Of a stretch of 64,000 bases of DNA, positions 22,298 to 44,001 are shown piece after piece. This DNA is from Antarcticibacterium flavum (lineage in GTDB: Bacteria; Bacteroidota; Bacteroidia; Flavobacteriales; Flavobacteriaceae): NCBI RefSeq assembly GCF_006159205.1, contig NZ_CP040812.1, positions 4,092,001 through 4,156,000 of the forward strand, given 5' to 3'. The notes beneath the pieces were generated by a model. That model was not told the DNA's origin. It worked only from the letters and a program-made list of their open reading frames with translations, and did no database searches. Position 1 is the first letter of the stretch. Each line of letters begins with the position of its first letter. The position numbers and the translations under genes are program-made.

Positions 22298-22387
22298 GTA
22301 TATAAATGTAATACTACATTTATTAAAAAATAAACTTAATTATTTTACATTGTAAAATGTAAAATTACATTTATACGTACGTTGGCA
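22298..22387 (+). other. Left boundary site of the cassette array (attC- or attI-like)
   Basis: 12-bp inverted arms TATAAATGTAAT (22301-22312) and ATTACATTTATA (22364-22375) lie before the first cassette start GTTGGCA (22381-22387). Spacing from the right arm to GTT resembles the other sites. I see no clear RYYYAAC box on the left, so it could be a degraded attC or an attI-type primary site. Confidence 0.45.
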
Positions 22388-22419
22388 GTAATTTCAAAAG
22401 ACAGACTAACAACAACAAA

Positions 22420-23121
22420 ATGATAACAATTGACAATTATTTAGACAGTCATTATATACACCGTAGTAATTGGTTAAGAGCAGCAGTGCTTGGAGCAAAT
22501 GACGGAATTATATCAATATCAAGTCTTGCAATCGGAGTTGCAACTGCAAGCACGACAAGAGACCCTATTCTTTTAGCGACTGTTGCAGGACTTGTGGCAG
22601 GAGCACTTTCTATGGCAGCAGGCGAATATGTTTCTGTTAGCTCTCAAACAGACATTGAAAAAGCAGATATTGAAAGAGAAAAAGACGAACTGAAAAAAAT
22701 GCCCGAAGCGGAATTGAAAATACTTGGAGAGATTTATGAAAAACGTGGACTGAAAAAGGAAACTGCTTTACAAGTAGCAAAAGAGTTAACAGAATCAGAT
22801 GCTTTGGGGACACACATTCGGGATGAATTAGGAATTAACGAAATTAGTCAAGCAAACCCAATTCAAGCCGCTTTTGCTTCGGGTGCAGCTTTTACGATTG
22901 GTGGTCTTCTGCCCCTATTGGTTACACTCTTTGCCCCTGTCGAAACAATGGAGTATTTTCTTTACGGGTTTACAATTTTATCTCTAATTATACTTGGTGC
23001 AGTTTCGGCAAAGACAGGTGGTTCAAGCATAGGCAAAGCAGTGATAAGAATTGTAATTTGGGGAACAATTGCAATGGGTTTATCCGCTTTAGTTGGATAC
23101 ATTTTTGGCGTTAATGTATAA
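22420..23121 (+). CDS. VIT1/CCC1-type iron/manganese transporter (cassette 1)
   Basis: 233 residues. Membrane protein with the family's first-helix signature (LRAAVLGANDGIISISSLAI), the second helix segment (LVAGALSMAAGEYVSVSSQT), a charged cytosolic metal-binding helical insert (residues ~75-145, rich in Glu/Lys), and three further helices. VIT family members export Fe2+ or Mn2+ from the cytosol, often to avoid toxicity. Start ATG 22420 lies 39 bp after the cassette start. The 19-bp gap to the next gene suggests a two-gene cassette. Confidence 0.9.
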   Translation: MITIDNYLDSHYIHRSNWLRAAVLGANDGIISISSLAIGVATASTTRDPILLATVAGLVAGALSMAAGEYVSVSSQTDIEKADIEREKDELKKMPEAELKILGEIYEKRGLKKETALQVAKELTESDALGTHIRDELGINEISQANPIQAAFASGAAFTIGGLLPLLVTLFAPVETMEYFLYGFTILSLIILGAVSAKTGGSSIGKAVIRIVIWGTIAMGLSALVGYIFGVNV

Positions 23122-23140
23122 TCTTAAAAAAATAAAAAAT

Positions 23141-23632
23141 ATGAACGAAGCACATTTTCATTTAGTGGTAAATCATTTACCCATCATTTTCCCAATTGTA
23201 GCAGTAATCATTATGATTACAGGTTTGATATACAAATCAGATGCAGTAAAGCGAACGGCATTTCTGATTTTTATAATTGGTTCTTTGACTTCAATTGCAG
23301 CTATGACAAGCGGAGAAGGAGCAGAAGAAATTGTTGAGAACATTAGCGGTGTGACAGAAAACTTCATTGAAAGACACGAAAAGTCGGCAGAACTTTTCTC
23401 AATTCTAACTTACATTTTAGGTGGACTTTCATTACTCGGACTTTGGGCAAGCATTAAACAAAAATCATTTTCAAACTTCTTAAATATTGGAATTTTGATT
23501 TTTGCCCTTGTAGTTATCTATTTCGGCAAAGAGACCGGAACAACAGGTGGTGAAATACAACACACGGAAATAAGACCGGATTATCAATATCCAGCGCCAA
23601 TCAAAAAGAATGATACCGAAGATGACTATTAA
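23141..23632 (+). CDS. DUF2231-like small membrane protein (cassette 1)
   Basis: 163 residues from ATG 23141; an earlier in-frame ATG at 23093 overlaps the VIT gene and is unlikely. Four hydrophobic helices and two conserved-looking histidines at the start (HFHLVVNHLPIIFPIVAVII), then TSGEGAEEIVEN between helices 2 and 3. This fits small DUF2231-like heme- or metal-linked membrane proteins; the family label is tentative. Second gene of cassette 1. Confidence 0.65.
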   Translation: MNEAHFHLVVNHLPIIFPIVAVIIMITGLIYKSDAVKRTAFLIFIIGSLTSIAAMTSGEGAEEIVENISGVTENFIERHEKSAELFSILTYILGGLSLLGLWASIKQKSFSNFLNIGILIFALVVIYFGKETGTTGGEIQHTEIRPDYQYPAPIKKNDTEDDY

Positions 23633-23641
23633 AAAAACTAC

Positions 23642-23776
23642 TGCCAACATCACCTATACGCAAGCAGGGGTTTTAGTGCTTCGTAGGACAGGAAAGTAGC
23701 AAATTTGAAGTTAAGTTATTCGTAGCCAGTTCAGTGGGTAAATTCCCTGCCTGCGTATAGCTGCAAACCGTTGTGT
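23642..23776 (+). repeat. attC-like site 1
   Basis: Left core TGCCAAC (23642-23648), right core GTTGTGT (23770-23776). Strong stem: CTATACGC-AAGCAGGG near 23654 pairs with CCCTGCCTGCGTATAG (about 23745-23760), 15 of 16 positions. Belongs to the sub-family with the internal word TTTAGTGCT. Confidence 0.85.
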
Positions 23777-23799
23777 GTAACCACAAAAAATAAATAAAT

Positions 23800-26082
23800 A
23801 TGAAATATGTAATAATATTTGCTATTCTATCTTTCTCTTCTGCTTCTTTTGCCCAAGTTGGTACAAATGGAGATGATAGAAAAGAAGAAGGGCGTCCCGT
23901 TAAAGAGTATAACCTTACTCTAGAACAAAAGGAGATGACCCTTGGAGGGGTAACAACCAAAGGTATGACCATAAATGGCAGTATTCCTGGTCCTACATTA
24001 GAATTTAATGAAGGTGACCTTGCCATAATCAATGTAACCAATAAAATGGATGTAGAAACGTCTGTACATTGGCACGGTTTAATACTTCCAAATTTCTATG
24101 ATGGTGTTCCTTATTTAACAACACCACCAATTGAGCCGGGTGAGACGTTTCAGTATAGAATTCCTATCAACCAATCGGGCACCTATTGGTACCATTCACA
24201 CACTTTATTGCAGGAGCAAAAGGGAGTTTATGGTTCCATTATCATTCAACCTAAAGAAAAGACATTGGATTATGACAAAGATTTGGTTGTGGTGCTTTCT
24301 GATTGGACCAATGAAAAACCAATGAATGTATTACGCAACCTTAAACGAAATAACGAATGGTATCAGGTTAAAAAGGGCACATCAGTGCCATTAAGCAGAG
24401 TCATTAAAGAAGGTGCATTGGGATCGCAATTTAAGTTTTGGCGTGATAGAATGGGAGGTGCCGATATTACAGATATTTACTACCCTGCTTTTTTAACTAA
24501 CGGAAAAAAACTCGCAGAATACCCAGAGTTTAAACCTGGTGAGAAAGTAAGGCTTCGTTTTATAAATGCATCGGCATCCACTTATTATTGGATGGATTTT
24601 GGTGGTGGTAATCCAATGATAGTTTCAAGTGACGGTATAGATGTAGAACCGGTACATAAAAGCCGATTTCTTTATGCAGTTGCGGAAACCTATGATGTTA
24701 TTGTTACTATTCCGGAAGGGACTTTAGAAATTACTGCCACGGCACAGGATGGTTCTGGCAATACCTCAATCCGCTTGGGAAGCGGAAAACTTTTCCCAGC
24801 AATGGTAATAGACAGACCAGACAAGGTGGCGATGATGAAGCAAATGGCAACAATGGATATGAAGATGGGAGCACCAGCAATGGTGGGCAACAAAAAGAAA
24901 AAAACACCAGAGTTTTTGATGCAGAAATATGGAATGAATAAGATGGATATGAAAGACGGCAAGATGAATGATAAAATGAAGATGAAGACGGACGATACGA
25001 TTGAAATGAAAAAGGACTCAATGCCAATGAAGCATAATATGTCTATGATGCAAAAAGACAGTACCACTTTTGATTACAGTACTCGTAAAACCTATTTCAA
25101 CTATGATTTTTTAAAAGCAAAGGAAGAAACCACTTATAAGAAAGACATACCGGTTAATGACATTCTGCTCAATCTAACTGGAAATATGCAGCGCTATGTT
25201 TGGAGTATGAATGGCGTACCATTGTCTGAAACAGATAAGATTAAAATTAAAGGTGGCGAGGTTACAAGAATCACACTAAATAATATAACAATGATGCATC
25301 ACCCAATGCATTTGCACGGGCATTTCTTTAGGGTAATCAATGAAAACGGGGAGCGTTCGCCATTAAAACACACCGTCAATGTACCACCAATGCAAAAAGT
25401 GGTCATCGAATTCTATAACGAAGAGTACGGCGATTGGTTCTTTCACTGTCACATATTGTACCATTTAATGGGTGGTATGAATCGTGTATTTAGTTATGAT
25501 ACACCAAGAGATGAACGGATGGCGGAATTTCCGGTTGAAAAACTTATACATGAAACTGACCTCTATTATTCGTGGGGATTGGCTCGTGCTGGTTCAAACT
25601 TTAATGAACTCTTTTTAACGTCAAGCAATATCAGAAATGAATTTAGTTTACGAGCCGAATTTGATTATAGCCAAAATGCCGAGATAGAAGTGAACTACAA
25701 TCGATACCTCAATGATTGGGTACGGGTGTATGCAGGAGTAAACACCGAAACTTCAACACCAGATTCTTATGATACGTTTAATACAGTAGGATTAGTTGGT
25801 GTTAAATATTTCACACCATATAGATTTAATGTAGATGTGAGTATGGACCATCAATTGCGTCCAAGAATCCGTTTGGATAGAGAGCTTTTACTTTTTCCAA
25901 GACTTTTTATAGAAGGCGAATATGAATACAGAGCCGACTTTGGTTGGGTCAATGATTTAGAAAATAATAAATCGTATCAAGGAGAGACCCAATGGCTGGT
26001 TGGTGTTTCTTATATCCTTTCTATAAATTTTTCCATCCAAGGAAATTATAATAATAGATATGGCTGGGGGGAGGATTATTAG
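23800..26082 (+). CDS. Multicopper oxidase (CopA-like) fused to a CopB-like barrel domain (cassette 2)
   Basis: 760 residues, signal peptide MKYVIIFAILSFSSASFAQ. Three cupredoxin domains with copper ligands HWHG (~90), YHSH (~130), HPMHLHGHFF (~500) and HCHILYHLMGGM (~550). Residues ~343-420 are Met-rich (MKMGAPAM, MNKMDMKDGKMNDKMKMK), typical of copper-resistance oxidases that bind Cu(I). From about residue 585 the protein continues into ~175 residues of aromatic-rich strands (FSLRAEFDYSQNAEIEVNYN) resembling the C-terminal barrel of CopB. CopA and CopB are usually separate proteins. Likely oxidises Cu(I) in the periplasm, and might be anchored at the outer membrane. Confidence 0.85.
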   Translation: MKYVIIFAILSFSSASFAQVGTNGDDRKEEGRPVKEYNLTLEQKEMTLGGVTTKGMTINGSIPGPTLEFNEGDLAIINVTNKMDVETSVHWHGLILPNFYDGVPYLTTPPIEPGETFQYRIPINQSGTYWYHSHTLLQEQKGVYGSIIIQPKEKTLDYDKDLVVVLSDWTNEKPMNVLRNLKRNNEWYQVKKGTSVPLSRVIKEGALGSQFKFWRDRMGGADITDIYYPAFLTNGKKLAEYPEFKPGEKVRLRFINASASTYYWMDFGGGNPMIVSSDGIDVEPVHKSRFLYAVAETYDVIVTIPEGTLEITATAQDGSGNTSIRLGSGKLFPAMVIDRPDKVAMMKQMATMDMKMGAPAMVGNKKKKTPEFLMQKYGMNKMDMKDGKMNDKMKMKTDDTIEMKKDSMPMKHNMSMMQKDSTTFDYSTRKTYFNYDFLKAKEETTYKKDIPVNDILLNLTGNMQRYVWSMNGVPLSETDKIKIKGGEVTRITLNNITMMHHPMHLHGHFFRVINENGERSPLKHTVNVPPMQKVVIEFYNEEYGDWFFHCHILYHLMGGMNRVFSYDTPRDERMAEFPVEKLIHETDLYYSWGLARAGSNFNELFLTSSNIRNEFSLRAEFDYSQNAEIEVNYNRYLNDWVRVYAGVNTETSTPDSYDTFNTVGLVGVKYFTPYRFNVDVSMDHQLRPRIRLDRELLLFPRLFIEGEYEYRADFGWVNDLENNKSYQGETQWLVGVSYILSINFSIQGNYNNRYGWGEDY

Positions 26083-26103
26083 TAAGATTCTAAAAAAGGC
26101 TAC

Positions 26104-26235
26104 ACACAACATTGTGTATGAGCAATAGCGGGTTTAGTGCTATTTTGAAACGTAAATCTATAAATCAAAGGTCGGTGCTATCTGACAGTTTAGTGGCTTA
26201 AAATCCGCTACTGCTCATACACGAGACCGTTACCC
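26104..26235 (+). repeat. attC-like site 2
   Basis: Left core ACACAAC (26104-26110), right core GTTACCC (26229-26235). GTGTATGAGCAATAGCGG next to the left core pairs with CCGCTACTGCTCATACAC before the right core at 17 of 18 positions. Contains TTTAGTGCT like sites 1 and 7. Confidence 0.88.
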
Positions 26236-26281
26236 TCAATTGCTCCAAAAAAATGATAACCCAATTTTTATACTCAAGCTA

Positions 26282-26767
26282 ATGATAAGTCTCTTTTTCA
26301 GTTTTTTATCTGTTTTTATCTCAAATCTATCAGCTGAGACCAATTTTATTGATTGTTGTAAACTTGATTTATCACCTTTTCAAATAGTTGAAGAAGTATA
26401 TATAGGTCAGGATAAGAAATTTTTAATAGAAGAACTTAAAAAGGCTAAAGATCATTATATCGATGATTTAAATTACGAAGTGTTCGAAATTAAGGAAAGA
26501 ACTGAGGTTTTTGGAGAAGAAAAAATTGTTAAAAAGACTTTTTCTTTGTTGGAAAACCAGCTTCATTATGTAGATGTTGAATTTCCAGTTGAGGTAAATG
26601 AATTTTTGGATATTGTGGAATCTTTAAAAAATCACAACGGATTTAATTTCATAAATTCTGACTTTAAATATTTCTTCCGCAAGGAACAAGAGAAATGTGA
26701 GATTTTTTTTAAAATCAATTCCACCGCGAATGGATATATTTTTATGTTAAGAATGTTTAGTAAGTAA
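26282..26767 (+). CDS. Exported hypothetical protein (cassette 3)
   Basis: 161 residues from ATG 26282; an in-frame TTG at 26240 adds a poor leader. Signal peptide MISLFFSFLSVFISNLSA. The mature part has a charged alpha/beta look with paired cysteines (FIDCCKLD). No family recognised. A 147-bp AT-rich tail without a gene follows before the attC-like site. Confidence 0.6.
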   Translation: MISLFFSFLSVFISNLSAETNFIDCCKLDLSPFQIVEEVYIGQDKKFLIEELKKAKDHYIDDLNYEVFEIKERTEVFGEEKIVKKTFSLLENQLHYVDVEFPVEVNEFLDIVESLKNHNGFNFINSDFKYFFRKEQEKCEIFFKINSTANGYIFMLRMFSK

Positions 26768-26914
26768 AAGGAGGATTTACTGATATGGTAAACGGTAAAT
26801 CAATGGATATCGGACTTTTTTGTTTGCCAAGGGTATTAACCAAAAATAATCTGACTCGGACTTTGATAAAAAACGTTCAATTTAAATGTGCTTACTCAGG
26901 TCTGTCGCAAAAGA

Positions 26915-27043
26915 GGGTAACAATATATAAAAACAATGCTTAATTTGTTCTTTAATCGAAAGTCTGTGTTTGCTTGCTTAGCGGATTGTCCTGCGGACAA
27001 TCCCGCACGCCAGCTCGCACAGTTTTTATACGAGACGTTGTAA
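26915..27043 (+). repeat. attC-like site 3
   Basis: Left core GGGTAAC (26915-26921), right core GTTGTAA (27037-27043). Main sub-family of the array: TATAAAAACAATGCT near the left pairs with CAGTTTTTATA near the right, and a central hairpin GATTGTCC-TGC-GGACAATC lies at about 26984-27002. Confidence 0.85.
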
Positions 27044-27091
27044 CACATTCTCCTTATGAATTAACCACAAAATTAAACTTTAGGCAGAATT

Positions 27092-27541
27092 ATGAAAAAA
27101 AATATCTTAAATCTAATTTTTATTTTATCATTAATTTTTGGTTGTCAATCAAAAAAAGAAAATGAAAATTCGGACTCCTATATACTTAAAATTAATGAAG
27201 ACACTGAGTATATAATTTTCGAATCAAGCGCACTATCAAGTGACGACAACGAAATAGCCTTTATTGTAGGATTCCAAATGGAAATTGTAAATGAAAATAA
27301 CAATCAAAACGCAATAGAGGTTTCTGATTTAGAATATTATACGAAAGCTGCGGTAACTTCTAATACAAGAAGCTTTATTGGTTCTAAACCGAAAGAAGAA
27401 CTGACTGAATTACGTAAGTTGAATTCTGATTTACCTGAGTCGGTTCATTATGAAGAGATGACTGAAATCATTAAGGATATAAACACTATGTTAAATGAGA
27501 TTGGCACAAGAGTTACATCTTTAGTTATCACAATCCAATAA
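27092..27541 (+). CDS. Lipoprotein of unknown function (cassette 4)
   Basis: 149 residues with a lipoprotein signal (LNLIFILSLIFGC, lipobox Cys at residue 18) and a mostly polar body (DEIAFIVGFQMEI-like strand region, then a helical end). No family recognised. Sole gene of a cassette of about 520 bp. Confidence 0.6.
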   Translation: MKKNILNLIFILSLIFGCQSKKENENSDSYILKINEDTEYIIFESSALSSDDNEIAFIVGFQMEIVNENNNQNAIEVSDLEYYTKAAVTSNTRSFIGSKPKEELTELRKLNSDLPESVHYEEMTEIIKDINTMLNEIGTRVTSLVITIQ

Positions 27542-27551
27542 AAAAAACGTG

Positions 27552-27680
27552 TTACAACAACATATAAAAACAATGCTTAAACCTGTCTTGATTCGAAATT
27601 CTTTGCTCGCTTGCTCAGCGGATTGTCCTGCGGACAATCACGCACGCCAGCTCGCACAGTTTTTATACGAGACGTTGTGG
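27552..27680 (+). repeat. attC-like site 4
   Basis: Left core TTACAAC (27552-27558), right core GTTGTGG (27674-27680). Main sub-family; uninterrupted, so it shows the native sequence AAC-AACA-TATAAAAAC into which the IS copies insert elsewhere. Confidence 0.88.
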
Positions 27681-27701
27681 TTAATTTAAAAAAAAGGAGG
27701 T

Positions 27702-28259
27702 ATGAAAATAATGTTAACTATTATTCTTTCACTTGTTTCGGTTTTCGGATACTCCTGTTCTTGTAAAGATTGGTTTGATACATCTGTCCTGGAAAGAATT
27801 AATCAAACTGACCAGATTTTTGAAGGAATAGTTAATGAGGTAACTACACTTGACGACAAAACTTTGACTATTGAATTTCTTTTAAAAAGAAAAATAAAAG
27901 GAGTTGACTCATTAGATGTAATTGTAATTCAAACCAGTTCAGGAATGTGTGGTTCGGAATTCAAGCAAGGAGAAAATTGGCTTATTTTTTCAAACTCAAA
28001 TTATACTGGAGTATGTTCTGGGAATTTTCAATTATTTCAAAATTCATTTAGTGAATTTCCCGTGTCAAAAGCTTCAGAGAAATACAAGTTTTACATTTCA
28101 AAACTTCAAAAATTCCTAAACGAATTATCGGACTTAAAAACTCAAAGGGAATTTGTGGAATTGGATAAAAATGATATGATCATAGCTAAAGGTGAAATTG
28201 GAGCTGATAAAAATCCGGTAAACGGTTGGTTCTATAAGAATTCTGTAATAAAAAACTAA
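27702..28259 (+). CDS. TIMP/NTR-like secreted protein (cassette 5)
   Basis: 185 residues. Signal peptide ends at SVFGYS and the mature N-terminus begins CSCKDW, followed by FEGIVNEVTTL, GMCGSEFKQGENWLIFSNS and a Cys-containing GVCSGNF. This pattern (N-terminal CxC, Cys pairs around GxxF-x-G-x-x-W/Y-L) is that of bacterial tissue-inhibitor-of-metalloproteinase/netrin-like domains. Target protease, if any, is unknown. An unusual AGGAGG ribosome site precedes ATG 27702. Confidence 0.65.
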   Translation: MKIMLTIILSLVSVFGYSCSCKDWFDTSVLERINQTDQIFEGIVNEVTTLDDKTLTIEFLLKRKIKGVDSLDVIVIQTSSGMCGSEFKQGENWLIFSNSNYTGVCSGNFQLFQNSFSEFPVSKASEKYKFYISKLQKFLNELSDLKTQREFVELDKNDMIIAKGEIGADKNPVNGWFYKNSVIKN

Positions 28260-28270
28260 CCACAACAACA

Positions 28271-29937
28271 GTAACCGTTGCACAAGCCTCTAATTCTGCA
28301 AAATCAATTTGAAATAAGCCTTTTTCAGGAACTTTAGGCTTCAATTCAGAATCTTAATAACTCAAATGAAGTTGTCTTACAGGTAAGTTTATAAGCTCCT
28401 GGAGGAGGTTTTTAAAAGGCGAAAGCGAAGCAAGCTGTCCTGCTCCCGATTTTACCCGTTTTGTTGTGAATTTCAGATATTTTTTGAGGTTATATGCAAT
28501 GGCGGCCAGGTGCATACATTTGTTTGCCTGGCGAATTCCGATGGTGTTTATTTTCCGTAGGCCCATAAATTCCTTGAGAGTTCCGAAGACAGGCTCCACC
28601 GTGCTTTGGCGTTTGCCTTTCATATAACGGCCGCGCCTGCTTTTTATTCGTTCAATATTCCTGTCATACTCCTCGCGATATGCGGTAATGTTGATCCTTT
28701 TTTCGTGGCTTTTCCCGATGCAGGCGGTTTTTATGGGACAGCCTTTACAATCTGCTCTTGTAGTAAAATAATTATCCTTTAGGTTTCCGTTTTCCATTTT
28801 CTGATTACGGTGAGTTACCTTTTTCCCATGGGGACATAGCCAGTAATTCCCTTCTTTGAAATATTGGAATCCTTCAGGCCCGCCCTTGTAGGTTCCGTGT
28901 GGAGGAATGTAAGTGGTGAGACCTTTGTTTTCGAAATATGCATAATTTTCACCGCTGCTGTAACCGGCATCTGCCAGTACATTTTCCCAGATGAGGCCTT
29001 CCCGGCGAAGACGTCTGTTTAATCTCCCGGCGGTGTCCTGAAGGTATTTAGTGTCTTTTTTATCTGCGTGGTAGGCTTGTACATCTGTTATCACATTTGT
29101 CCTGGTATCAACGGCGATGTTGCACAGATAATTCAGTTTCCTGGCCTTACCGGGTTTGACACTAATCCGCGCATCGGGATCTGTAGGGCTGTAATGGGTT
29201 TTGTTACTGGTGTATTTACTGCCTTTGTTTTTTGCGCCGGGTTTCATATCCTGGTCTTCGCTCCATCTTTTGTTTCGGCTCTTGATTTCCTGTAGTTCAG
29301 ATTTACTGGCCGTTATACTTTGTTGTTCTTTAGGAGCTTTGTTCCCTTTGGCCTTTCGGTCACTGCTGCTTTGCACACGCAGCTTAGAGAGATGCTCCTC
29401 GAGATCTTCTGCCGGGACTTTAAGCTCCAGGCTGTCCATAGAAGCATTGGCTTTTACGGGAGCTGAATCTATTGCCTGGGTATGGCCGCTTACCAGTCCT
29501 GCTTCAATACATAATTTTAATACCCGGGTGAAAACCTCTTCAAAAATATCATCAGGAAAAAGTTTACGGGTACGGCTTATGGTGCTGTGCCAGGGAAGTT
29601 CCTCATCGACATCATATCCCAAAAAATAAAGGATGTCCAGTCGCATGGCGCAGTGGTCCATCACGCCACGATCTGTAGTGATATTCTCAAGATATCCCAC
29701 CAGGCAGATCTTGAAATACACCACCGGGTCGATACTTTTTTGTCCGCTCCCGCCGTAGAATTTTTGAGTAAGCGGATAGAGGAAATCCAGGTTAAGGGCT
29801 TCCTTTAATCTGCGATAAAAATTTTCTTTGGGAATTCGGTCACTCAACCTAAACGAAGTGAAGAGTTTTTCCTGATAGTCTTTTTTGCCTTGCATTCCAT
29901 GAAATTACCTAATTTCAGTAACTTGTGCAACAGGCAC
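28271..29937 (-). mobile_element. IS1182-family element, copy 1
   Basis: 1667 bp. Ends GTAACCGTTGCACAAG and, inverted, GTGCCTGTTGCACAAG; the inner 10 bp match exactly. Flanked by AACA on both sides (28267-28270 and 29938-29941), a 4-bp duplication. Inserted 4 bp after the AAC of the attC left core, with its transposase opposing the cassettes. Confidence 0.88.
28354..29895 (-). CDS. IS1182-family transposase, copy 1
   Basis: 513 residues. N-terminal DUF772-type domain (FYRRLKEALNLDFLYPLTQK, KICLVGYLENITTDR) and a DDE domain (QAIDSAPVKANASM; NVLADAGYSSGENYAYFENK; STVEPVFGTLKEFMGLRKI with the catalytic Glu). A zinc-finger-like Cys cluster (CKGCPIKTACIG) lies between. Intact and nearly identical to copy 2, so it may be active. 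Confidence 0.92.
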   Translation of the reverse strand: MQGKKDYQEKLFTSFRLSDRIPKENFYRRLKEALNLDFLYPLTQKFYGGSGQKSIDPVVYFKICLVGYLENITTDRGVMDHCAMRLDILYFLGYDVDEELPWHSTISRTRKLFPDDIFEEVFTRVLKLCIEAGLVSGHTQAIDSAPVKANASMDSLELKVPAEDLEEHLSKLRVQSSSDRKAKGNKAPKEQQSITASKSELQEIKSRNKRWSEDQDMKPGAKNKGSKYTSNKTHYSPTDPDARISVKPGKARKLNYLCNIAVDTRTNVITDVQAYHADKKDTKYLQDTAGRLNRRLRREGLIWENVLADAGYSSGENYAYFENKGLTTYIPPHGTYKGGPEGFQYFKEGNYWLCPHGKKVTHRNQKMENGNLKDNYFTTRADCKGCPIKTACIGKSHEKRINITAYREEYDRNIERIKSRRGRYMKGKRQSTVEPVFGTLKEFMGLRKINTIGIRQANKCMHLAAIAYNLKKYLKFTTKRVKSGAGQLASLSPFKNLLQELINLPVRQLHLSY

Positions 29938-30102
29938 AACATATAAAAACAATGCTTAATTTGGTCTTGAATCGAAGCTCCGTGCTCGCTTGCTAAGCGG
30001 ATTGTCCTGCGGACAATCACTCTAGCCAGCTCGCACAGTTTTTATACGAGACGTTACATACAATGCCTCCGAAACGGAAAATTAAGTTAAAAGGACTGCG
30101 AT

Positions 30103-30204: not shown

Positions 30205-30431
30205 ACTTTTGGACTGATAACCAGTACAGATAATTTCCAGATTTACTTACTCATACGAGGGAACCGGAAAATGCGAAGCGGACTGAAAACAGAACGGAGA
30301 AAATCGGACTTGCTTACTCCTGCTGATTATGACGTGATCATTAAAACCCAGTGGACTTTACTCGCTCGTGGAAAAGAAAGCGGCTCAAAAAACGTGTTTA
30401 CTCGGTCGTGTCGGCAAAGTATGTAACAACA

Positions 30432-32099
30432 GTAACCGTTGCACAACCCTCTAATTCTTCAAAATCCAATTTGAAATAAGCCATTTTCAGGAACTTTAGG
30501 TTTCAATTCAGAATCTCAATAGCTCAAATGAAGTTGCCTTGTAGGTAAGTTTCTTAGCTCCTGGAGGAGATTTTTAAAAGGAGGAACCGAAGGAAGCTGG
30601 CCTGCTCCGGATTTTACCCGTTTTGTGGTGAATTTCAAGTATTTTTTGAGGTTATATGCAATAGCAGCCAGGTGCATACATTTGTTTGCCTGTCGAATTC
30701 CGATGGTGTTTATTTTCCGGAGGCCCATAAATTCTTTGAGGGTTCCAAAAACAGGCTCCACCGTGCTTTGGCGTTTGCCTTTCATGTAACGGCCGCGCCT
30801 GCTTTTTACCCGTTCAATATTCCTGTCATACTCCTCGCGATATGCGGTGATATTGATTCGTTTTTCGTGGCTTTTGCCAATGCAGGCTGTTTTTATAGGG
30901 CAACCTTTACAATCTGCCCGGGTAGTGAAATAGTTGTCTTTTAGGTTTCCGTTTTCCATTTTCTGATTACGGTGAGTTACCTTTTTCCCCTGGGGACATA
31001 GCCAGTAATTCCCTTCTTTGAAATATTGGAAACCCTCCGGTCCACCTTTGTAAGTTCCATGTGGAGGAATGTAAGTGGTGAGACCTTTGTTTTCGAAATA
31101 AGCATAATTTTCACCACTGCTGTAACCGGCATCTGCCAGTACATTTTCCCAGATGAGGCCTTCCCGGCGAAGACGTCTGTTTAATCTCCCGGCGGTGTCC
31201 TGAAGGTATTTAGTGTCTTTTTTATCTGCGTGGTAGGCTTGTACATCTGTTATCACATTTGTCCTGGTATCAACAGCGATGTTGCATAGGTAATTCAGTT
31301 TCCTTGCCTTACCGGGTTTGACACTAATCCGCGCATCGGGATCGGTTGGGCTGTAATGGGTTTTGTTACTGGTATACCTGCTGCCTTTGTTTTTTGCACC
31401 GGGTTTCATATCCTGGTCCTTGCTCCATTTCTTGTTTCGGCTCTTGATCTCCTGTAGTTCAGATTTACTGGCCGTTAAACTTTGTTGTTCTTTAGGAGCT
31501 TTGTTCCCTTTGGCCTTTCGGTCACTGCTGCTTTGCACACGCAGCTTAGAGAGATGCTCCTCGAGATCTTCTGCCGGGACTTTAAGCTCCAGGCTGTCCA
31601 TAGAAGCATTGGCTTTTACGGGAGCTGAATCTATTGCCTGGGTATGGCCGCTTACCAGTCCTGCTTCAATACATAATTTTAATACCCGGGTGAAAACCTC
31701 TTCAAAAATATCATCAGGAAAAAGTTTACGGGTACGGCTTATGGTGCTGTGCCAGGGAAGTTCCTCATCGACATCATATCCCAAAAAATAAAGGATGTCC
31801 AGTCGCATGGCGCAGTGGTCCATCACGCCACGATCTGTAGTGATATTCTCAAGATATCCCACCAGGCAGATCTTGAAATACACCACCGGGTCGATACTTT
31901 TTTGTCCGCTCCCGCCGTAGAATTTTTGAGTAAGAGGATAGAGGAAATCCAGGTTAAGGGCTTCCTTTAATCTGCGATAAAAATTTTCTTTGGGAATTCG
32001 GTCACTCAACCTAAACGAAGTGAAGAGTTTTTCCTGATAGTCTTTTTTGCCTTGCATACCATGAAATTACCTAATTTCAGTAACTTGTGCAACAGGCAC
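30432..32099 (-). mobile_element. IS1182-family element, copy 2
   Basis: 1668 bp, same ends and orientation as copy 1, flanked by AACA (30428-30431, 32100-32103). Inserted 4 bp after the AAC of the left core. Confidence 0.88.
30516..32057 (-). CDS. IS1182-family transposase, copy 2
   Basis: 513 residues, same domains and catalytic segments as copy 1, with a handful of substitutions (for example KKWSKDQD for KRWSEDQD). Intact. Confidence 0.92.
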   Translation of the reverse strand: MQGKKDYQEKLFTSFRLSDRIPKENFYRRLKEALNLDFLYPLTQKFYGGSGQKSIDPVVYFKICLVGYLENITTDRGVMDHCAMRLDILYFLGYDVDEELPWHSTISRTRKLFPDDIFEEVFTRVLKLCIEAGLVSGHTQAIDSAPVKANASMDSLELKVPAEDLEEHLSKLRVQSSSDRKAKGNKAPKEQQSLTASKSELQEIKSRNKKWSKDQDMKPGAKNKGSRYTSNKTHYSPTDPDARISVKPGKARKLNYLCNIAVDTRTNVITDVQAYHADKKDTKYLQDTAGRLNRRLRREGLIWENVLADAGYSSGENYAYFENKGLTTYIPPHGTYKGGPEGFQYFKEGNYWLCPQGKKVTHRNQKMENGNLKDNYFTTRADCKGCPIKTACIGKSHEKRINITAYREEYDRNIERVKSRRGRYMKGKRQSTVEPVFGTLKEFMGLRKINTIGIRQANKCMHLAAIAYNLKKYLKFTTKRVKSGAGQLPSVPPFKNLLQELRNLPTRQLHLSY

Positions 32100-32284
32100 A
32101 ACATATAAAAACAATGCTTAATTTGTTCTTGAATCGAAACTCCTTGCTCGCTTGTTTTGCGGATTGTCCTGCAGACAATCACGCACGTCAGCTCGCACAG
32201 TTTTTATACGAGACGTTAGCGGTCAGGCAATAAAACGACCCGAGAAACAAATCGGGTTATTTTTAAAATATTGTATTTTAGCAT

Positions 32285-33519: not shown

Positions 33520-33650
33520 CGCTAACAATGTATATACAAAATAGGCGAAATAGCAGTAAAATCAAGGCTTTTGGCTCGTATCAATCTTTGTGCTTAACCG
33601 AAAGTTTAGTGCTTCGAAATCGCCTACTTTTCATATACTAACCGTTACCA
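33520..33650 (+). repeat. attC-like site 7
   Basis: Left core CGCTAAC (33520-33526), right core GTTACCA (33644-33650). GTATATACAAAATAGGCGA pairs with TCGCCTACTTTTCATATAC. TTTAGTGCT sub-family. Confidence 0.85.
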
Positions 33651-33993: not shown

Positions 33994-34004
33994 TGGTAAC
34001 AATG

Positions 34005-35671
34005 GTAACCGTTGCACAACCCTCTAATTCTGCAAAATCAATTTGAAATAAGCCTTTTTCAGGAACTTTAGGCTTCAATTCAGAATCTTAATAACTCAAA
34101 TGAAGTTGTCTTACAGGTAAGTTTATAAGCTCCTGGAGGAGGTTTTTAAAAGGAGAAGGCGAAGCAAGCTGTCCTGCTCCCGATTTTACCCGTTTTGTGG
34201 TGAATTTCAGATATTTTTTGAGGTTATATGCAATGGCGGCCAGGTGCATACATTTATTTGCCTGGCGAATTCCGATGGTGTTTATTTTCCGGAGGCCCAT
34301 AAATTCCTTGAGAGTTCCGAAGACAGGCTCCACCGTGCTTTGGCGTTTCCCTTTCATATAACGACCACGCCTGCTATTTACTCGCTCAATATTTCTGTTA
34401 TATTCCTCGCGATAAGCTGTGATATTGATTCGTTTTTCGTGGCTTTTACCAATGCAGGCCGTTTTTATGGGACAGCCTTTACAATCGGCTCTTGTAGTAA
34501 AATAATTATCCTTTAGGTTTCCGTTTTCCATTTTCTGATTACGGTGAATTACCTTTTTCCCCTGGGGACATAGCCAGTAATTCCCTTCTTTGAAATATTG
34601 GAAACCCTCCGGTCCACCTTTGTAAGTTCCATGTGGGGGAATATAAGTAGTAAGACCTTTGTTTTCGAAATATGCATAATTTTCACCACTGCTGTAACCG
34701 GCATCTGCCAGTACATTTTCCCAGATGAGGCCTTCCCGGCGAAGACGTCTGTTTAATCTCCTGGCGGTGTCCTGAAGGTATTTAGTGTCTTTTTTATCTG
34801 TGTGGTAGGCTTGTACATCTGTTATCACATTTGTCCTGGTATCAACGGCGATGTTGCACAGATAATTCAGTTTCCTGGCCTTACCGGGTTTGACACTAAT
34901 CCGCGCATCGGGATCTGTAGGGCTGTAATGGGTTTTGTTGCTGGTGTATTTACTGCCTTTATTTTTTGCGCCGGGTTTCATATCCTGGTCCTTGCTCCAT
35001 TTCTTGTTTCGGCTCCTGATCTCCTGTAGTTCAGATTTACTGGCAGTTATACTTTGTTGTTCTTTAGGAGCTTTGTTCCCTTTGGCCTTTCGGTCGCTGC
35101 TGCTTTGCACACGCAGCTTTGAGAGATGCTCCTCGAGATCTTCTGCCGGGACTTTAAGCTCCAGGCTATCCATAGAAGCATTGGCTTTTACGGGAGCTGA
35201 ATCTATTGCCTGGGTGTGGCCGCTTACAAGTCCTGCTTCGATACATAATTTTAATACCCGGGTGAAGACCTCTTCAAAAATATCATCAGGAAAAAGTTTA
35301 CGGGTACGGCTTATGGTGCTGTGCCAGGGAAGTTCCTCATCGACATCTTAACCCAAAAAATAAAGGATGTCCAGTCGCATGGCGCAGTGGTCCATCACGC
35401 CACGATCTGTAGTGATATTCTCAAGATATCCCACCAGGCAGATCTTGAAATACACCACGGGGTCGATACTTTTTTGTCCGCTCCCGCCGTAGAATTTTTG
35501 AGTAAGAGGATAGAGAAAATCCAGGTTAAGGGCTTCCTTTAATCGACGATAAAAATTTTCTTTTGGAATTCGATCACTCAACCTAAAAGAAGTGAAGAGT
35601 TTTTCCTGATAATCTTTTTTGTCTTGCATTCCATGAAATTACCTAATTTCAGTAACTTGTGCAACAGGCAC
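34005..35671 (-). mobile_element. IS1182-family element, copy 3 (dead)
   Basis: 1667 bp, same ends as copies 1-2. Left flank AATG, right flank ACTA, so no direct duplication. The same two words flank copy 5 in the opposite arrangement. Confidence 0.88.
34088..35629 (-). pseudogene. IS1182-family transposase, copy 3 (nonsense mutation)
   Basis: Frame continuous with copies 1-2 except for a stop after residue 93 (DILYFLG-stop): the codon TAT of copies 1-2 is TAA here, with a neighbouring silent change (35347-35352). The 361-residue distal part is otherwise intact. Confidence 0.88.
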
Positions 35672-35807
35672 ACTATGTAAATGCCATGGCCCTAAATCAT
35701 TAGCCTGAAAAGGGGCCACAGCATTTACACGCAACGTTCTATGCAATTTCGACCGTAACTAAATTAAACTTTTGTTCGTCTTACCAATAATTTATTAAAC
35801 AATCAAA

Positions 35808-37193: not shown

Positions 37194-37325
37194 ATAGAAC
37201 ACGGTATATAAAAAATAGCGGATTCAGTGCTAAATCAAAAGTATGTGCATATTAATAAACACCAGTAATTAACCGAAAATTTGTGCTTTTTAACCCGCTA
37301 CTTTTCATATACCAACACGTTGGCA
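37194..37325 (+). repeat. attC-like site 9
   Basis: Left core ATAGAAC (37194-37200), right core GTTGGCA (37319-37325). GGTATAT...AATAGCGG pairs with CCGCTACTTTTCATATACC. TTTAGTGCT-related sub-family (TTCAGTGCT). Confidence 0.83.
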
Positions 37326-37353: not shown

Positions 37354-37557
37354 ATGGAAGTTGTTCTTGAAGTTTTAATAATTATACTTTTTCGCTATCC
37401 AGGCGCCGGATTACGTTGGGCAGTTTCCCGACTTTGGAAATCGGATAAAACCTTCAAAGACTTTCTTATTGATGATGCTTATATTAATGGAACAATCGGA
37501 CTTTTATTCCTTGCGGCTATAGTCATTGTTGTACTGACTCTGTCTGGAACAGTCTGA
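37354..37557 (+). CDS. 67-residue membrane protein (cassette 10)
   Basis: Two hydrophobic helices (VVLEVLIIILF and GTIGLLFLAAIVIVVLTLSG) with a basic amphipathic linker (WAVSRLWKSDKTF). Only gene of a 258-bp cassette. No family recognised; small hydrophobic cassette proteins of this kind are common in integron arrays. Confidence 0.6.
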   Translation: MEVVLEVLIIILFRYPGAGLRWAVSRLWKSDKTFKDFLIDDAYINGTIGLLFLAAIVIVVLTLSGTV

Positions 37558-37580
37558 AAAAAATACTAATGCCAACAACG

Positions 37581-38568
37581 GTAACCGTTGCACAACCCTC
37601 TAATTCTTCAAAATCCAATTTGAAATAAGCCTTTTTCAGGAAATTTAGGTTCCAATTCAGAATCTCAATAGCTCAAATGAAGTTGTCTTACAGGTAAGTT
37701 TATAAGCTCCTGAAGGAGATTTTTAAAAGGAGAAACCGAAGCAAGCTGTCCTGCTCCGGATTTTACCCGCTTTGTGGTGAATTTCAAATATTTTTTGAGG
37801 TTATAGGCAATAGCGGCGAAGTGCATACATTTGTTTGCCTGTCGAATTCCGATGGTGTTTATTTTCCGGAGGCCCATAAATTCCTTGAGAGTTCCGAAGA
37901 CAGGCTCCACCGTGCTTTGGCGTTTCCCTTTCATATAACGGCCACGCCTGCTATTTACTCGCTCAATATTTCTGTTATATTCCTCGCGATAAGCTGTGAT
38001 ATTGATTCGTTTTTCGTGGCTTTTGCCAATGCAGGCCGTTTTTATGGGACAGCCTTTACAATCGGCTCTTGTAGTAAAATAATTATCCTTTAGGTTTCCG
38101 TTTTCCATTTTCTGATTACGGTGAATTACCTTTTTCCCCTGGGGACATAGCCAGTAATTCCCTTCTTTGAAATATTGGAAACCCTCCGGTCCACCTTTGT
38201 AAGTTCCATGTGGAGGAATGTAAGTGGTGAGACCTTTGTTTTCGAAATAAGCATAATTTTCACCACTGCTGTAACCGGCATCTGCCAGTATATTTTCCCA
38301 GATGAGGCCTTCCCGGCGAAGACGTCTGTTTAATCTCCTGGCGGTGTCCTGAAGATATTTAGTGTCTTTTTTATCTGCGTGGTAGGCTTGTACATCTGTT
38401 ATCACATTTGTCCTGGTATCAACGGCGATGTTGCACAGATAATTCAGTTTCCTTGCCTTACCGGGTTTGACACTTATTCGGGCATCGGGATCGGTTGGGC
38501 TGTAAATAGTCTTTTTTACCTCGCAAAGCAGGAAATTAACTTTTTTCGGTAACTTGTGCAGCAGGCAC
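37581..38568 (-). mobile_element. IS1182-family element, copy 4 (internally deleted)
   Basis: 988 bp. Left end intact to about 38505, then a direct jump to the last ~60 bp of the right end. About 680 bp, including the transposase N-terminus, is gone. Confidence 0.85.
37665..38505 (-). pseudogene. IS1182-family transposase, copy 4 (5' deleted)
   Basis: The C-terminal ~280 residues of the transposase remain (DDE half from about residue 233). The start codon and DUF772 domain are deleted. Confidence 0.85.
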
Positions 38569-38712
38569 TTTCTATAAAAACAATGCTAAAACCGGTTTTG
38601 AATTTAAACTTCTGGCAAGCTGGCACGAATGATTGGCCTCAGGATAATTACACTCGCCAGATCGCACTTTTTTTCATGGGACGTTATCATTATTAGCTCA
38701 AAAAAGAACTTA

Positions 38713-39306: not shown

Positions 39307-39378
39307 TTATGTCACATATGTGACAGGTTTGGTGTAAGGTTTACAACTAAATTGCCTTATAATCAGAAAATAGAAAAA

Positions 39379-40695: not shown

Positions 40696-40761
40696 GTCAG
40701 TCCGGATTAAATGTAAAGTAAAAGAAACTTACAACGAGTTCTCATTGGGGGGCGCTACTAA

Positions 40762-40897
40762 TGACAACAACATATGCTCTGAAAAGCAATGCTTAAATTA
40801 GTCACACATCGAAGCCCTCTTGCTCGCTTGGAGCGCTTGATTATCCTGCAGACAATCAAGCTTGCCAGCTCGCACTGTTTTATACGGGACTTTGTAG
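40762..40897 (+). repeat. attC-like site 11
   Basis: Left core TGACAAC (40762-40768). Right core TTTGTAG (40891-40897), with T where the conserved G of GTT is expected. Main sub-family. Confidence 0.8.
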
Positions 40898-40933
40898 CCA
40901 ATATAGACTGACACGAAAAAAAATTAAAAACTT

Positions 40934-41782: not shown

Positions 41783-41795
41783 ATAAAAAAGGTGG

Positions 41796-41940
41796 CTACA
41801 ACAACATATCCTATGAAAAGCAATGCTCAAACTTGTCTCGACTCGAAATTCCGTGCTCCCTTACGTAGCGGATTGTACTGCGGACAATTACGCGCGCCAG
41901 CTTGCACAGTTTTTATACGGAACATTGGCAACAATTAAAA
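41796..41940 (+). repeat. attC-like site 12
   Basis: Left core CTACAAC (41796-41802). Right core ATTGGCA (41934-41940), with A replacing the conserved G. Main sub-family, uninterrupted. Confidence 0.8.
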
Positions 41941-41951
41941 TCTATAATAAA

Positions 41952-42341
41952 ATGAAAACTAAAATATATTTATTTTTTCTTCTTGCAATTTTAGTTTCTT
42001 GTTCGGATGATGATTCTGAGGAATGTATTGGATACAGATCGGAAAATGTGACAGAGGTAAACTCACCATCCTCAGTAAGAATAAATGAATCGATAGAAAT
42101 TGAAGTTAAATTCGCGGTCTATAACGGGTGCGGAAAATTTGAAAAGTTTATTGAAAGTGGCAGTGAACAGTCAAAAATAATAGAGGTTCAGGCAAAGTAT
42201 GAAGGTTGTATCTGCACCGACAATATTCCGATAATAACGGCTATTTATGAATTTACTCCCTCGACAATAGGAGAGTACGAATTGAAATTCAAATCCGGAG
42301 AAACGGATTATATTACGGTAAATATAGCCGTGACAGATTAA
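41952..42341 (+). CDS. Lipoprotein of unknown function (cassette 13)
   Basis: 129 residues from ATG 41952; the longer frame would begin inside the attC-like site. Lipobox LVSCSDDDSEEC, then a beta-rich domain (INESIEIEVKFAVYNGCGKF, GEYELKFKSGETDYITVNIA) with four further cysteines. Immunoglobulin-like fold is likely. No function known. Confidence 0.65.
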   Translation: MKTKIYLFFLLAILVSCSDDDSEECIGYRSENVTEVNSPSSVRINESIEIEVKFAVYNGCGKFEKFIESGSEQSKIIEVQAKYEGCICTDNIPIITAIYEFTPSTIGEYELKFKSGETDYITVNIAVTD

Positions 42342-42347
42342 AACTGT

Positions 42348-42834
42348 TGCCAACACTAGTAACTGTTGAACAACCCTCTAATTCTTCAAAATCCACTTTG
42401 AAATAAGCCTTTTTCAGGAACTTTAGGCTTCAATTTAGAATCTCAATAGCTCAAATAAAGTTGTCGCGCAGTTAAGTTTCTAAGCTCCTGGGGGAGCTTT
42501 TTAAAAGGAGAAACCTAAGCAAGCTGTCCTGCTCCCGATTTTACCCGTTTTGTGGTGAATTTCAGATATTTTTTGAGGTTATAGGCAATGGCGGCCAGGT
42601 GCATACATTTGTTTGCCTGACGAAAGGTCAATGAAGAGTTTTTCCTGATAGTCTTTTTTGCCTTGCATAGCATGAAATTACCTATTTTCGATAACTTGTG
42701 CACCAGGCACAATGCATAAAAACAATGCTATTTTAGTGACGAATCGAAAGCCTGTGTTTACTTGCTGCGTCTGATTTTCCTGCGGAAAATCATCGCTGGC
42801 AATCATCGCACTGTTTTTATACAAGACGTTGTAG
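42348..42834 (+). repeat. Hybrid attC-like site 13, split by IS copy 5
   Basis: Left part TGCCAAC-ACTA (42348-42358) belongs to cassette 13. Right part AATGCATAAAAAC.. (42711 on) to core GTTGTAG (42828-42834). The reciprocal halves are at hybrid site 8. Confidence 0.82.
42359..42710 (-). mobile_element. IS1182-family remnant, copy 5
   Basis: 352 bp. Both ends survive (GTAACTGTTGAACAA on the left, TTGTGCACCAGGCAC on the right, each slightly mutated), but about 1.3 kb of the interior is deleted. Codes only for the last ~45 transposase residues fused to noise (42515-42712). MITE-like. Confidence 0.85.
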
Positions 42835-42879
42835 CAAATTGAAACCAATTCATATTTCTAACCTTTTAATACGAATAAA

Positions 42880-43320
42880 ATGAAACCAAAAATGGTTTTT
42901 CTTTTAAGCATCTTTCTATCCCTTTCAATAAGCTGTTCAAAAGCGGATTTGGGCGATCCTATTAATTACGAGTTGATTTTAGAAAATCATCTAAGCTATG
43001 ATAGTGAAGAAACTATTCCAGAACAAACTCTTGTCTTTAAAAATGAATCTGATCTCAATAATTTCTTACCTGTAATTGAGCAGGTTAATCCTTATCGTGT
43101 TGACAACCTAAAAAACCTGGATTTTGATTTCAGTCATAATGATCTGATCCTCATAATTGGGAAATACTACGCATATTGCTGTAGTAAGATCAATATAAAT
43201 GGCGTGTATAAAGAAAATAACAGTGTCGTGGTAAAATATAAAGAAAGTGGACCTGGAGAGGCCACGGCAGTAAGTCAAGCATATACTGTTCTGAAAATTT
43301 CCAAGGAGGACTCGGAATAA
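42880..43320 (+). CDS. Lipoprotein with PrcB-C-like domain (cassette 14)
   Basis: 146 residues. Lipobox SISCSKADLG. The C-terminal strand pattern NDLILIIGKYYAYCCSKINI, NSVVVKYKESGPGEATAVSQ, AYTVLKISK resembles PrcB_C-type domains found in bacterial lipoproteins; this label is tentative. Only gene of cassette 14. Confidence 0.6.
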   Translation: MKPKMVFLLSIFLSLSISCSKADLGDPINYELILENHLSYDSEETIPEQTLVFKNESDLNNFLPVIEQVNPYRVDNLKNLDFDFSHNDLILIIGKYYAYCCSKININGVYKENNSVVVKYKESGPGEATAVSQAYTVLKISKEDSE

Positions 43321-43326
43321 AACTTG

Positions 43327-43455
43327 CTGCAACAGCATATAAAAACAATGCTTAATTTGTTCTCGAATCGAAAGACCGTGCTCCCTTGCTCAGCGGATTG
43401 TCCTGCGGACAATCACGCCCGGCCGCTCGCACAGTTTTTATACGGGACGTTACCA
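43327..43455 (+). repeat. attC-like site 14
   Basis: Left core CTGCAAC (43327-43333), right core GTTACCA (43449-43455). Main sub-family; the cassette 14 ends match at 9 of 10 positions. Confidence 0.83.
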
Positions 43456-43484
43456 ACAAGCTAAAAAAAATCAAATAGCTGATA

Positions 43485-43961
43485 ATGCCATTAAAAGAGG
43501 TACAAAAAGAATTAAATGGAATGGACAAGCCCGAACTCGTTAAAATAATTTCGGAGATGTACAATAAAATTCCAGCTGTTAAAACTTACTTAGACTTTTT
43601 TGCTACTGGAGAAATAGAAAAACTTGCAGCGAAGTATAAAAAGGAAATTGAAAAGTATATTTATCCAAGTGGACGAAATTTGGAATTACGGGAAACTGAA
43701 GCTCGAAAAGTAATTCGATCTGTCCAAAAAATGAAGATTACGGAGCTTATTGTGGAATTGGAATTACACTATGTCTCCTGTTGCCTGGAAGTCATTGAAG
43801 ACTTTGACTATTGGGAGGAAAACTATTATAAAGCAATGGAGAAAATGTTTTATTCTGCATTAAGCGGAATAACTGCATTGGGGATGGAGGAAAAGTGTAA
43901 TGAACGGATAATAGAAATTGTTAGCAAAGCAAGTGATTCCGATATTGAACTTTCGTATTAG
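43485..43961 (+). CDS. DUF6155-like helical protein (cassette 15)
   Basis: 158 residues, all helical, no signal peptide. Pattern MPLKEVQKELNGMDKPELVK, MYNKIPAVKTYLDFFATGE, KKEIEKYIYPS fits the DUF6155 family of cytosolic proteins, often seen in mobile DNA. Role unknown. Last complete cassette; its left core TGGTAAC (43979-43985) is present but no hairpin follows, so its attC is truncated. Confidence 0.7.
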   Translation: MPLKEVQKELNGMDKPELVKIISEMYNKIPAVKTYLDFFATGEIEKLAAKYKKEIEKYIYPSGRNLELRETEARKVIRSVQKMKITELIVELELHYVSCCLEVIEDFDYWEENYYKAMEKMFYSALSGITALGMEEKCNERIIEIVSKASDSDIELSY

Positions 43962-44001
43962 TTCTCAAGAAAGCCAATTGGTAACAACAAAACGAAAAAG
44001 A

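Follow-up and report, generated by a model that had tools for sequence, protein, structure and literature searches.

A cassette array in Antarcticibacterium flavum points to a probable integron-like gene-capture system of the Bacteroidota, predicted to use a XerA-like recombinase

Integrons, including sedentary chromosomal arrays and clusters of attC sites lacking integron integrases (CALINs), combine a tyrosine recombinase gene, an attI site and single-gene cassettes arranged head to tail. In published work, classical attC sites are described as being read through extrahelical bases (PMC2727003, PMC7790495), pairing of 9-11 nt between the two ends of one cassette is already known (PMC2727003), the I2 helix of IntI is held to enable a Xer-like enzyme to recombine the folded single-stranded attC (PMC7790495), and definitions of integrons, like the searches for them, rely on the additional domain (PMC8352920, PMC9668308). 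Here we describe an array of 15 cassettes lying head to tail with attC-like sites in a 64,000-nt stretch of Antarcticibacterium flavum, which is referred to throughout as the window (bases 4,092,001-4,156,000 of NZ_CP040812.1, the one contig of a 4.35-Mb genome). The array very probably works like an integron, and it is likely a copy, now decayed, of a Bacteroidota gene-capture system that resembles integrons and whose predicted recombinase is XerA-like and lacks the IntI-specific insert.

The start and end of each window cassette are complementary to each other. An earlier reading of the window (the original prediction) had placed 15 cassettes and listed 13 exact start and end pairs. All cassettes were confirmed at their positions, all 13 pairs were found in the array as exact reverse complements, and C11 and C14 are each one base off, as had been claimed. 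Pairing was scored as matches over the 6 nt beyond GTT between a cassette start and its own end, which gave 6, 6, 6, 6, 6, 6, 6, 6, 6, 6, 5, 6, 6, 5 and 5 of 6 for C1 to C15 (87 of 90 bases, with 12 of 15 cassettes perfect). When ends were shuffled among the 15 cassettes in 200,000 permutations, the control that the original prediction had called for, the mean total was 32.5 and the maximum 65, with a mean of 0.8 perfect pairs. The start of a cassette matches the end of the one before it at a mean of only 1.3 of 6 positions, thus the pairing is within cassettes, which supports the view that they behave as units derived from circles. Beyond the first 8-10 nt, 14 of the 15 starts have A at position 11, with C standing opposite in 10 of 15.

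The same pairing was evident well beyond the window. Sites were located with a stem detector (AAC, a near-perfect gapless 16-bp stem and GTT) in 65 named loci and 14 other array-bearing stretches, the window and locus L013 included. Of the resulting 189 pairs of neighbouring sites, 130 had perfect own-end complementarity, against a mean of 2.6 and a maximum of 9 in 2000 shuffles, and many of the imperfect pairs probably skip a missed site. In addition, 167 cassettes were walked from known starts to the reverse-complement 9-mer, which avoids the bias of the detector against bulges; 47 of these cassette ends had been missed by it. The own-end stem spans 14 positions in this set: positions 1-9 are fixed by the method, position 10 is paired in 74%, all 167 starts have A at position 11, which faces C in 144 of them, and pairing resumes at positions 12-14 (89, 93 and 81%). 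The same pattern, with A/C at position 11 in 121, was seen in a second set, 144 pairs defined by hairpins and selected for matches at 5 or more of the 6 positions.

Traces of cassette movement were found as well. Eight cassette pairs cover more than 60% of the shorter member (a self-overlap in L074 was not counted), and two of these lie in different loci, namely C6, which has a counterpart in a second array of the same genome (93% end to end), and a cassette present in two Winogradskyella loci (97%). In both of these the left site is also alike (0.89 and 0.81, respectively) and the previous cassette is unlike. Duplicates within a locus occur in L053 (three copies), L071 and L107, where similarity is 0.94-1.0 between the cassettes and only 0.57-0.62 over the 120 bp that precede GTT. 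These copies have the beginning of the right-hand site in common, and on the left similarity ends exactly at GTT, as expected if a cassette travels with its own site. Were the hairpins terminators or other RNA elements, with incidental end pairing and spread by homologous recombination or insertion sequence (IS) transposition, their position behind genes would be natural, and the IS copies found in five window sites could drive rearrangement. The exact left edges with a common right-hand start in L053, L071 and L107 and the excess of perfect own-end pairs (130 against 2.6) argue against this explanation, as does an Rfam scan of the window, which at gathering scores returned tRNA only and no family at the array sites; we regard it as most improbable.

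Site structure was compared across 149 sites, which remained of the 167 walked cassettes after 157 had been scored (10 were left out, IS-split ones among these) and 8 fell below a stem score of 8. In the L stem, an A on the L'' side stands opposite a C at 9 (110 sites) or 10 (35 sites) nt behind AAC, and again at 14 (120 sites) or 15 (27 sites) nt; the reverse, C opposite A, was found in 5 of the 149 stems even though it was scored alike. These fixed-place pairs are G·T wobbles on the bottom strand and A·C mismatches on the top strand. A bulge occurs within the first 14 steps in only 27 of the 149 stems, and the extrahelical-base rule of integron sites therefore does not describe these sites, which have wobbles at fixed places. 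The bottom strand is the more stable in 148 of 149 L stems and 137 of 149 whole sites. Bottom-strand folding into attC-like hairpins with extrahelical bases had been anticipated for the window: the hairpins are present, but bulges are confined to the minority just given among related sites, and while seven of the nine unsplit window sites fold lower on the bottom strand (S2 and S7 fold better on the top), the z-score is below -2 in only four, so that energy alone is not decisive. The core motifs of integron sites, R' GTTRRRY and R'' RYYYAAC, are likewise not followed; GTT and AAC are present, but only 33% of the 167 cassettes have a purine as fifth letter. A simple detector for classical attC returned seven sites around 20 IntI loci, all bulged, which is too few for a firm contrast. 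The original prediction had taken the pattern to be covered by known attC biology, a view that these sites do not support. As judged from sequence, what is new in the anatomy of these sites is the wobbles at fixed places together with the scarcity of bulges, the own-end pairing itself being known.

RNAalifold found no structure in a MAFFT alignment of the nine unsplit window sites, which we think is due to two site types lying out of register. A covariance model, R1, was instead built from five A-type sites (S3, S4, S11, S12 and S14) with the register set by hand. This narrow model at E≤0.001 gave 20 sites over 22 of the 65 named loci, all downstream and on the expected strand, and within the genus it gave sites in 9 of 16 genomes, A. 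flavum included (150 candidates scored per genome). R1 sites outside both arrays of A. flavum lie at 588234, 590358, 634936, 3385780 and 3725010, and these five are perhaps cassettes at secondary targets.

The array had also been described as being without an integron integrase. No protein in the whole genome exceeds the cut-off of 265 bits for the IntI family TIGR02249, the best match reaching 122 bits by its best stretch and 213 bits over the whole protein. This match is located at 3.62 Mb, and site S9, used as a DNA query, hit the same region 22 kb further on. That region (locus L012), about 0.5 Mb from the window array, encodes a 375-aa tyrosine recombinase (P0001), and the second array begins with its first cassette about 90 bp behind the gene. 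The description is thus right for IntI, but the lack of a recombinase is true only locally. The approximately 100 bp between the P0001 gene and its first cassette (L012 16969-17062) are nearly identical to the bases before C1, an attI-like site with an imperfect hairpin that ends at the cut of C1 between G and TT (22284..22383, + strand). The upstream flank is common to both arrays as well (21860..22020, with no strand assigned, aligned to L012 15200-15360), and the window has a remnant-like stretch of about 45 bp similar to the 3' terminus of the P0001 gene (22235..22283, + strand, from a gappy MAFFT alignment with the intact gene end in L012 and a three-frame reading). Given this common attI-like site, flank and gene-end stretch, the window array is most simply a copy from which the recombinase was deleted and in which the attI-like site was kept.

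P0001 belongs to the XerA-like family NF040815 (231.1 bits against a cut-off of 220), and the catalytic residues R234, K259, H323, R326, H349 and Y358 are invariant in 27 rows. The IntI-specific insert is absent. The match of P0001 to VchIntIA (2a3v) skips residues 181-237, and 28 aligned relatives have no insert at this position. The K-loop-to-RH distance is 68 in all 12 measurable Bacteroidota rows versus 110 in 24 of 29 IntI (of the other five, one was 112, one 74 and three were unmeasured; for a thirtieth locus, L140, no open reading frame (ORF) was found), with an artefact of 290 for L030 and values of 45-77 in six distant rows. In a quick tree, 17 IntI rows form a separate branch. P0001-type recombinases carry about 100 extra N-terminal residues, and the N-terminal 78 residues give a weak structural match to HARP and to the N-terminal damage-recognition domain of XPB; a search of the PDB with the sequence of the N-terminal domain returned only two rows at chance level (E 1.1). 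These extra residues and the context of array and attI-like site also set the enzyme apart from XerA-type recombinases in general (NF040815; solved structures 4a8e and 5hxy).

In L012 the recombinase is preceded by a divergent gene (15368-15757) whose product, P0002, has about 130 aa and cysteines like those of a zinc ribbon. Such a companion precedes most core-group recombinases, in 44 of 51 named loci, and P0002 matched no Pfam or NCBIfam family at E 0.001. Besides this companion, the arrays differ from integrons in attI, here a palindrome behind the recombinase stop codon, with gene and cassettes in the same direction. Over 39 loci, three of which (L067, L081 and L100) were wrongly placed, the palindrome arms have a median of 10 bp versus 4 in shuffled sequence, and the palindrome ends 33-134 bp (median 63) past the stop codon.

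The arrays share several features with integrons: cassettes head to tail with one recombination site each, an integrase gene beside attI and array (for a non-IntI recombinase, and with only the remnant-like stretch in the window), hairpin sites of the R''/L''/L'/R' type with AAC and GTT, better folding of the bottom strand, and own-end pairing. The missing insert, the extra N-terminal residues and the wobble-coded sites set the arrays apart. It seems possible but doubtful that the system is no independent invention but a lineage of true integrons whose integrase secondarily lost the additional domain, with an unchanged single-strand mechanism and another reader of the hairpin. Because the additional domain and the extrahelical-base rule were both examined and neither applies, we do not count the system among IntI integrons.

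Recombinases of this family are widespread. A scan of named genomes identified 65 loci, mostly in Flavobacteriaceae (including Arenibacter, Tamlana, Winogradskyella, Aquimarina, Maribacter, Formosa and Cellulophaga) and also in Prolixibacteraceae and other Bacteroidota. Downstream of these (280 kb), 146 sites lie on the array strand versus 8 on the other, and one Markov shuffle per downstream stretch gave 5 sites in all; upstream (514 kb) the two strands have 17 and 10 sites. Among loci L065-L116 with at least 1.5 kb downstream, 34 of 38 have at least one same-strand site. Distant matches from archaeal, desulfobacterial and other bins (L117-L129) had no same-strand site downstream on their short flanks. 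A profile of 27 relatives (A6, threshold E≤1e-70) matches 92 of 296 genomes of the phylum, in 62 of 140 genera. We examined the flanks of the best match in each of the 40 top-scoring genomes other than A. flavum. Thirty-four had at least 1.5 kb downstream, of which 32 carry at least one same-strand site and 21 at least two, and all 40 together have 100 sites on the same strand versus 23 on the other, with 44 perfect own-end pairs. A search of related genomes, as the original prediction had suggested, finds sites of the same type in many Bacteroidota, but beside a XerA-like gene and, within the sample of 296 genomes, with no TIGR02249 match in the family to which A. flavum belongs.

These counts bear on whether the window array could be the remnant of an ordinary IntI integron (a CALIN) whose IntI has since been lost, the XerA-like gene beside the other array being a bystander. 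TIGR02249 matches over the cut-off are common in the phylum (84 of 296 genomes), and head-to-tail cassettes with AAC/GTT sites follow the integron plan, in which own-end pairing is known. However, none of the 85 genomes with a TIGR02249 match in the 296-genome sample belongs to the same family as A. flavum, 34 of 38 named loci have a site behind the XerA-like gene, the site rules differ, and the stem detector applied around 20 true IntI genes of the phylum found 8 sites on both strands of 329 kb, which is near background. Such a remnant is therefore improbable. The arrays instead adjoin a recombinase that lacks a part which integron enzymes need, thus a second kind of gene-collecting system is likely.

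In terms of anatomy, this system has a recombinase gene, a palindromic attI-like site and head-to-tail cassettes pointing away from the recombinase, along with own-end covariation, strand-coded stems and, for some cassettes, recurrence with exact left edges beside differing neighbours, all read from DNA. In the mechanism we propose, a cassette circle would fold its bottom-strand site into one hairpin, which consists of a 14-bp R stem formed by the two ends of the cassette itself, a spacer and an L stem some 16 bp long. The recombinase would recognize the bottom strand by its wobbles, perhaps through the N-terminal domain instead of the helix that IntI uses, and would join the circle to attI between G and TT; excision would run the same reaction backwards. 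The window would have lost most of the recombinase gene along with the divergent companion gene, and IS copies fill 5 of its 15 sites; the intact P0001 copy about 0.5 Mb away could serve the window array in trans.

The recombinase family also has a link to the tetracycline-resistance gene tet(X). A search of a plasmid collection with P0001 gave 146 matching records at E≤1e-40, to which Acinetobacter contributes 50. The best matches by coverage are Bacteroidota plasmids at about 40% identity, and the highest identity among the best 30 of the 146 matches (51.5% over the core) belongs to a truncated recombinase in rows H10-H30, 21 records of which 20 are from Acinetobacter and one is uncultured. 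In all three of these records that were opened, tet(X3) adjoins the truncated recombinase, for example in plasmid p80-1-2-tetX3 (L161 6055-8100). This arrangement is the ISCR2-xerD-tet(X3) module of Acinetobacter plasmids. Annotated as 'TnpF' or as 'xerD' before tet(X3), the truncated recombinase falls inside the P0001 family in a quick tree, and a palindrome was seen by eye before the plasmid tet(X3) unit. A genome of the same class as A. flavum (L254 1483-2690) has a tet(X)-type gene, 86% identical, that forms a whole cassette with ends complementary at 7 of 7 tested positions and with sites of the same type on both sides, both scoring above 15 with the detector at a lowered threshold. The first 14 nt of this cassette are those of the plasmid tet(X3) unit. 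The module resembles the array system in its family recombinase, its palindrome and these 14 nt and differs in that its recombinase is truncated, it is spread there by other elements, and the two ends of its unit match at only 4 of the 7 positions tested, which suggests that the plasmid copy has changed. A tet(X)-type gene at threshold was found in only 2 of 247 genomes of the class, and the second of these (62%) has no such cassette ends. In earlier reports, xerD was noted beside tet(X) genes with its role left open (PMC7473080), and site-specific recombination was named as a possibility for tet(X) (PMC11194056). Taken together, the array system is likely to be the origin of the tet(X) module and to have moved the tet(X) gene.

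In a Chryseobacterium plasmid (L163 11956-24990), a related recombinase and cassette sites were found, and the array there contains a group II intron as well as a gene of the IS110 family. Both kinds of element are also known from classical attC sites.

Of the 15 window cassettes, 13 have GTT as the triplet at the cut, the exceptions being C12 (TTT) and C13 (ATT). Nine sites are whole, five are split by ISs and the last is incomplete. All cassettes are on the + strand and all sites and IS copies on the - strand. The cargo includes metal-related proteins (a VIT1-family protein, a multicopper oxidase, and ArsR with MerTP), hydrolases and several small ORFs without a family. Cassette C1 (22381..23648, recognized by its own ends) encodes the VIT1-family protein (PF01988) and a second ORF without a family, and is followed by the unsplit site S1 (23642..23776). 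C2 (23770..26110) encodes the multicopper oxidase (PF07732, PF07731) with a weak CopB-like tail (PF05275, below its cut-off) and precedes the unsplit S2 (26104..26235). Single ORFs without a family make up C3 (175 aa; 26229..26921), C4 (149 aa; 27037..27558) and C5 (185 aa; 27674..28266), with S3 (26915..27043; R1 151.6 bits) and S4 (27552..27680; R1 157.4 bits) between them and the IS-split S5 (28260..30059; right half R1 134 bits) behind C5. C6 (30053..30427), whose second-array copy is 92.8% alike end to end, has no + strand ORF of 70 aa and is followed by the IS-split S6 (30421..32221; right half R1 140.3 bits). The ArsR/SmtB regulator (NF033788, 77.3 bits, cut-off 55), MerTP (NF033556, 314.3 bits, cut-off 180) and a 68-aa Cys-rich ORF are located in C7 (32215..33526), before the unsplit S7 (33520..33650).

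Like C6, C8 (33644..34000) has no + strand ORF of 70 aa; its site S8 (33994..35742; right half R1 23.8 bits) is split by a broken IS copy. C9 (35736..37200) encodes a hydrolase with a serine beta-lactamase fold (PF00144) that reached no NCBIfam cut-off among its best 25 matches, and ends at the unsplit S9 (37194..37325). C10 (37319..37576) has a 67-aa ORF without a family and a site, S10 (37570..38689; right half R1 43.8 bits), split by a truncated IS copy. A Crp-like regulator and an M20 amidohydrolase (PF00027, PF01546) are encoded in C11 (38683..40768), followed by S11 (40762..40897; R1 114.1 bits), and a DUF5694 protein (PF18950) in C12 (40891..41802), followed by S12 (41796..41930; R1 132.4 bits). 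C13 (41924..42354) contains a 129-aa ORF without a family, and its site S13 (42348..42834; right half R1 79.4 bits) is split by an IS remnant. C14 (42828..43333) encodes a 146-aa ORF with PrcB_C below its cut-off, before S14 (43327..43455; R1 150.2 bits). The last cassette, C15 (43449..43985), encodes a DUF6155 protein (PF19652); its site breaks off after R'', and the array appears to be broken off here, since only the first half of the site is present.

Five IS1182-family copies are found in the window sites. The transposase of the first, located in the 4-nt spacer behind R'' of S5 (28271..29937), was assigned to NF033551 (341.6 bits against a cut-off of 270), and the others were assigned by DNA repeats: a second copy in S6 (30432..32099), a copy with a broken ORF in S8 (34005..35671), a truncated copy in S10 (37581..38568) and a remnant in S13 (42359..42710). 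The copies took the spacer behind R'' as target, and repeats of 4 nt flank them at S5 and S6 (aaca/aaca at both), as in L012 (atta/atta). Flanks at S8 (4 nt), S10 and S13 are unlike, which suggests that these copies were probably rearranged later. Elements of the same family were seen by eye in cassette sites of L012, L013, L102 and L106. The IS1111-attC group comprises IS elements that target attC. The window ISs resemble it as an IS family repeatedly inserted in cassette sites, and differ in belonging to the IS1182 family, in using the 4-nt spacer behind R'' and in their 4-nt repeats where flanks are intact.

Neither the stem detector nor R1 found a site between 43985 and the following integrase gene (44376-45671). 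This gene encodes an arm-domain integrase of the CTnDOT type and lies beside a tRNA at the broken array end (44376-45927), thus the array end probably adjoins an integrated island. As the enzyme of the array it was rejected, with its arm-binding domain PF17293 and an NF040815 score of 69 bits, below the cut-off of 220. Elsewhere in the window, three tandem ORFs (380, 325 and 345 aa; 15563-18675) each have a tyrosine recombinase match, as in recombinase-in-trio elements.

The original prediction of an integron-type array was thus half right, in that the array is predicted to work in the manner of integron arrays without being an IntI integron. In the accessible parts of the open-licence literature on integron-like arrays in Bacteroidota or without the IntI domain, and on xerD and tet(X), the system is not described, most subscription papers and all preprints being outside this scope. 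We consider it probable that the Bacteroidota have a second, undescribed integron, with a XerA-like recombinase, an N-terminal domain that reads structure and G·T-wobble hairpins, whose recombinase profile is present in about a third of the sampled genomes of the phylum and which is the native vehicle of tet(X). The same anatomy without the additional domain and with another hairpin code would show a second route to cassette capture, and makes testable what a recombinase requires for reading a folded strand. Integron surveys that demand the additional domain would miss many Bacteroidota arrays. Furthermore, a concrete origin is offered for a mobile resistance gene, as a tet(X)-type gene in one genome forms a perfect cassette.

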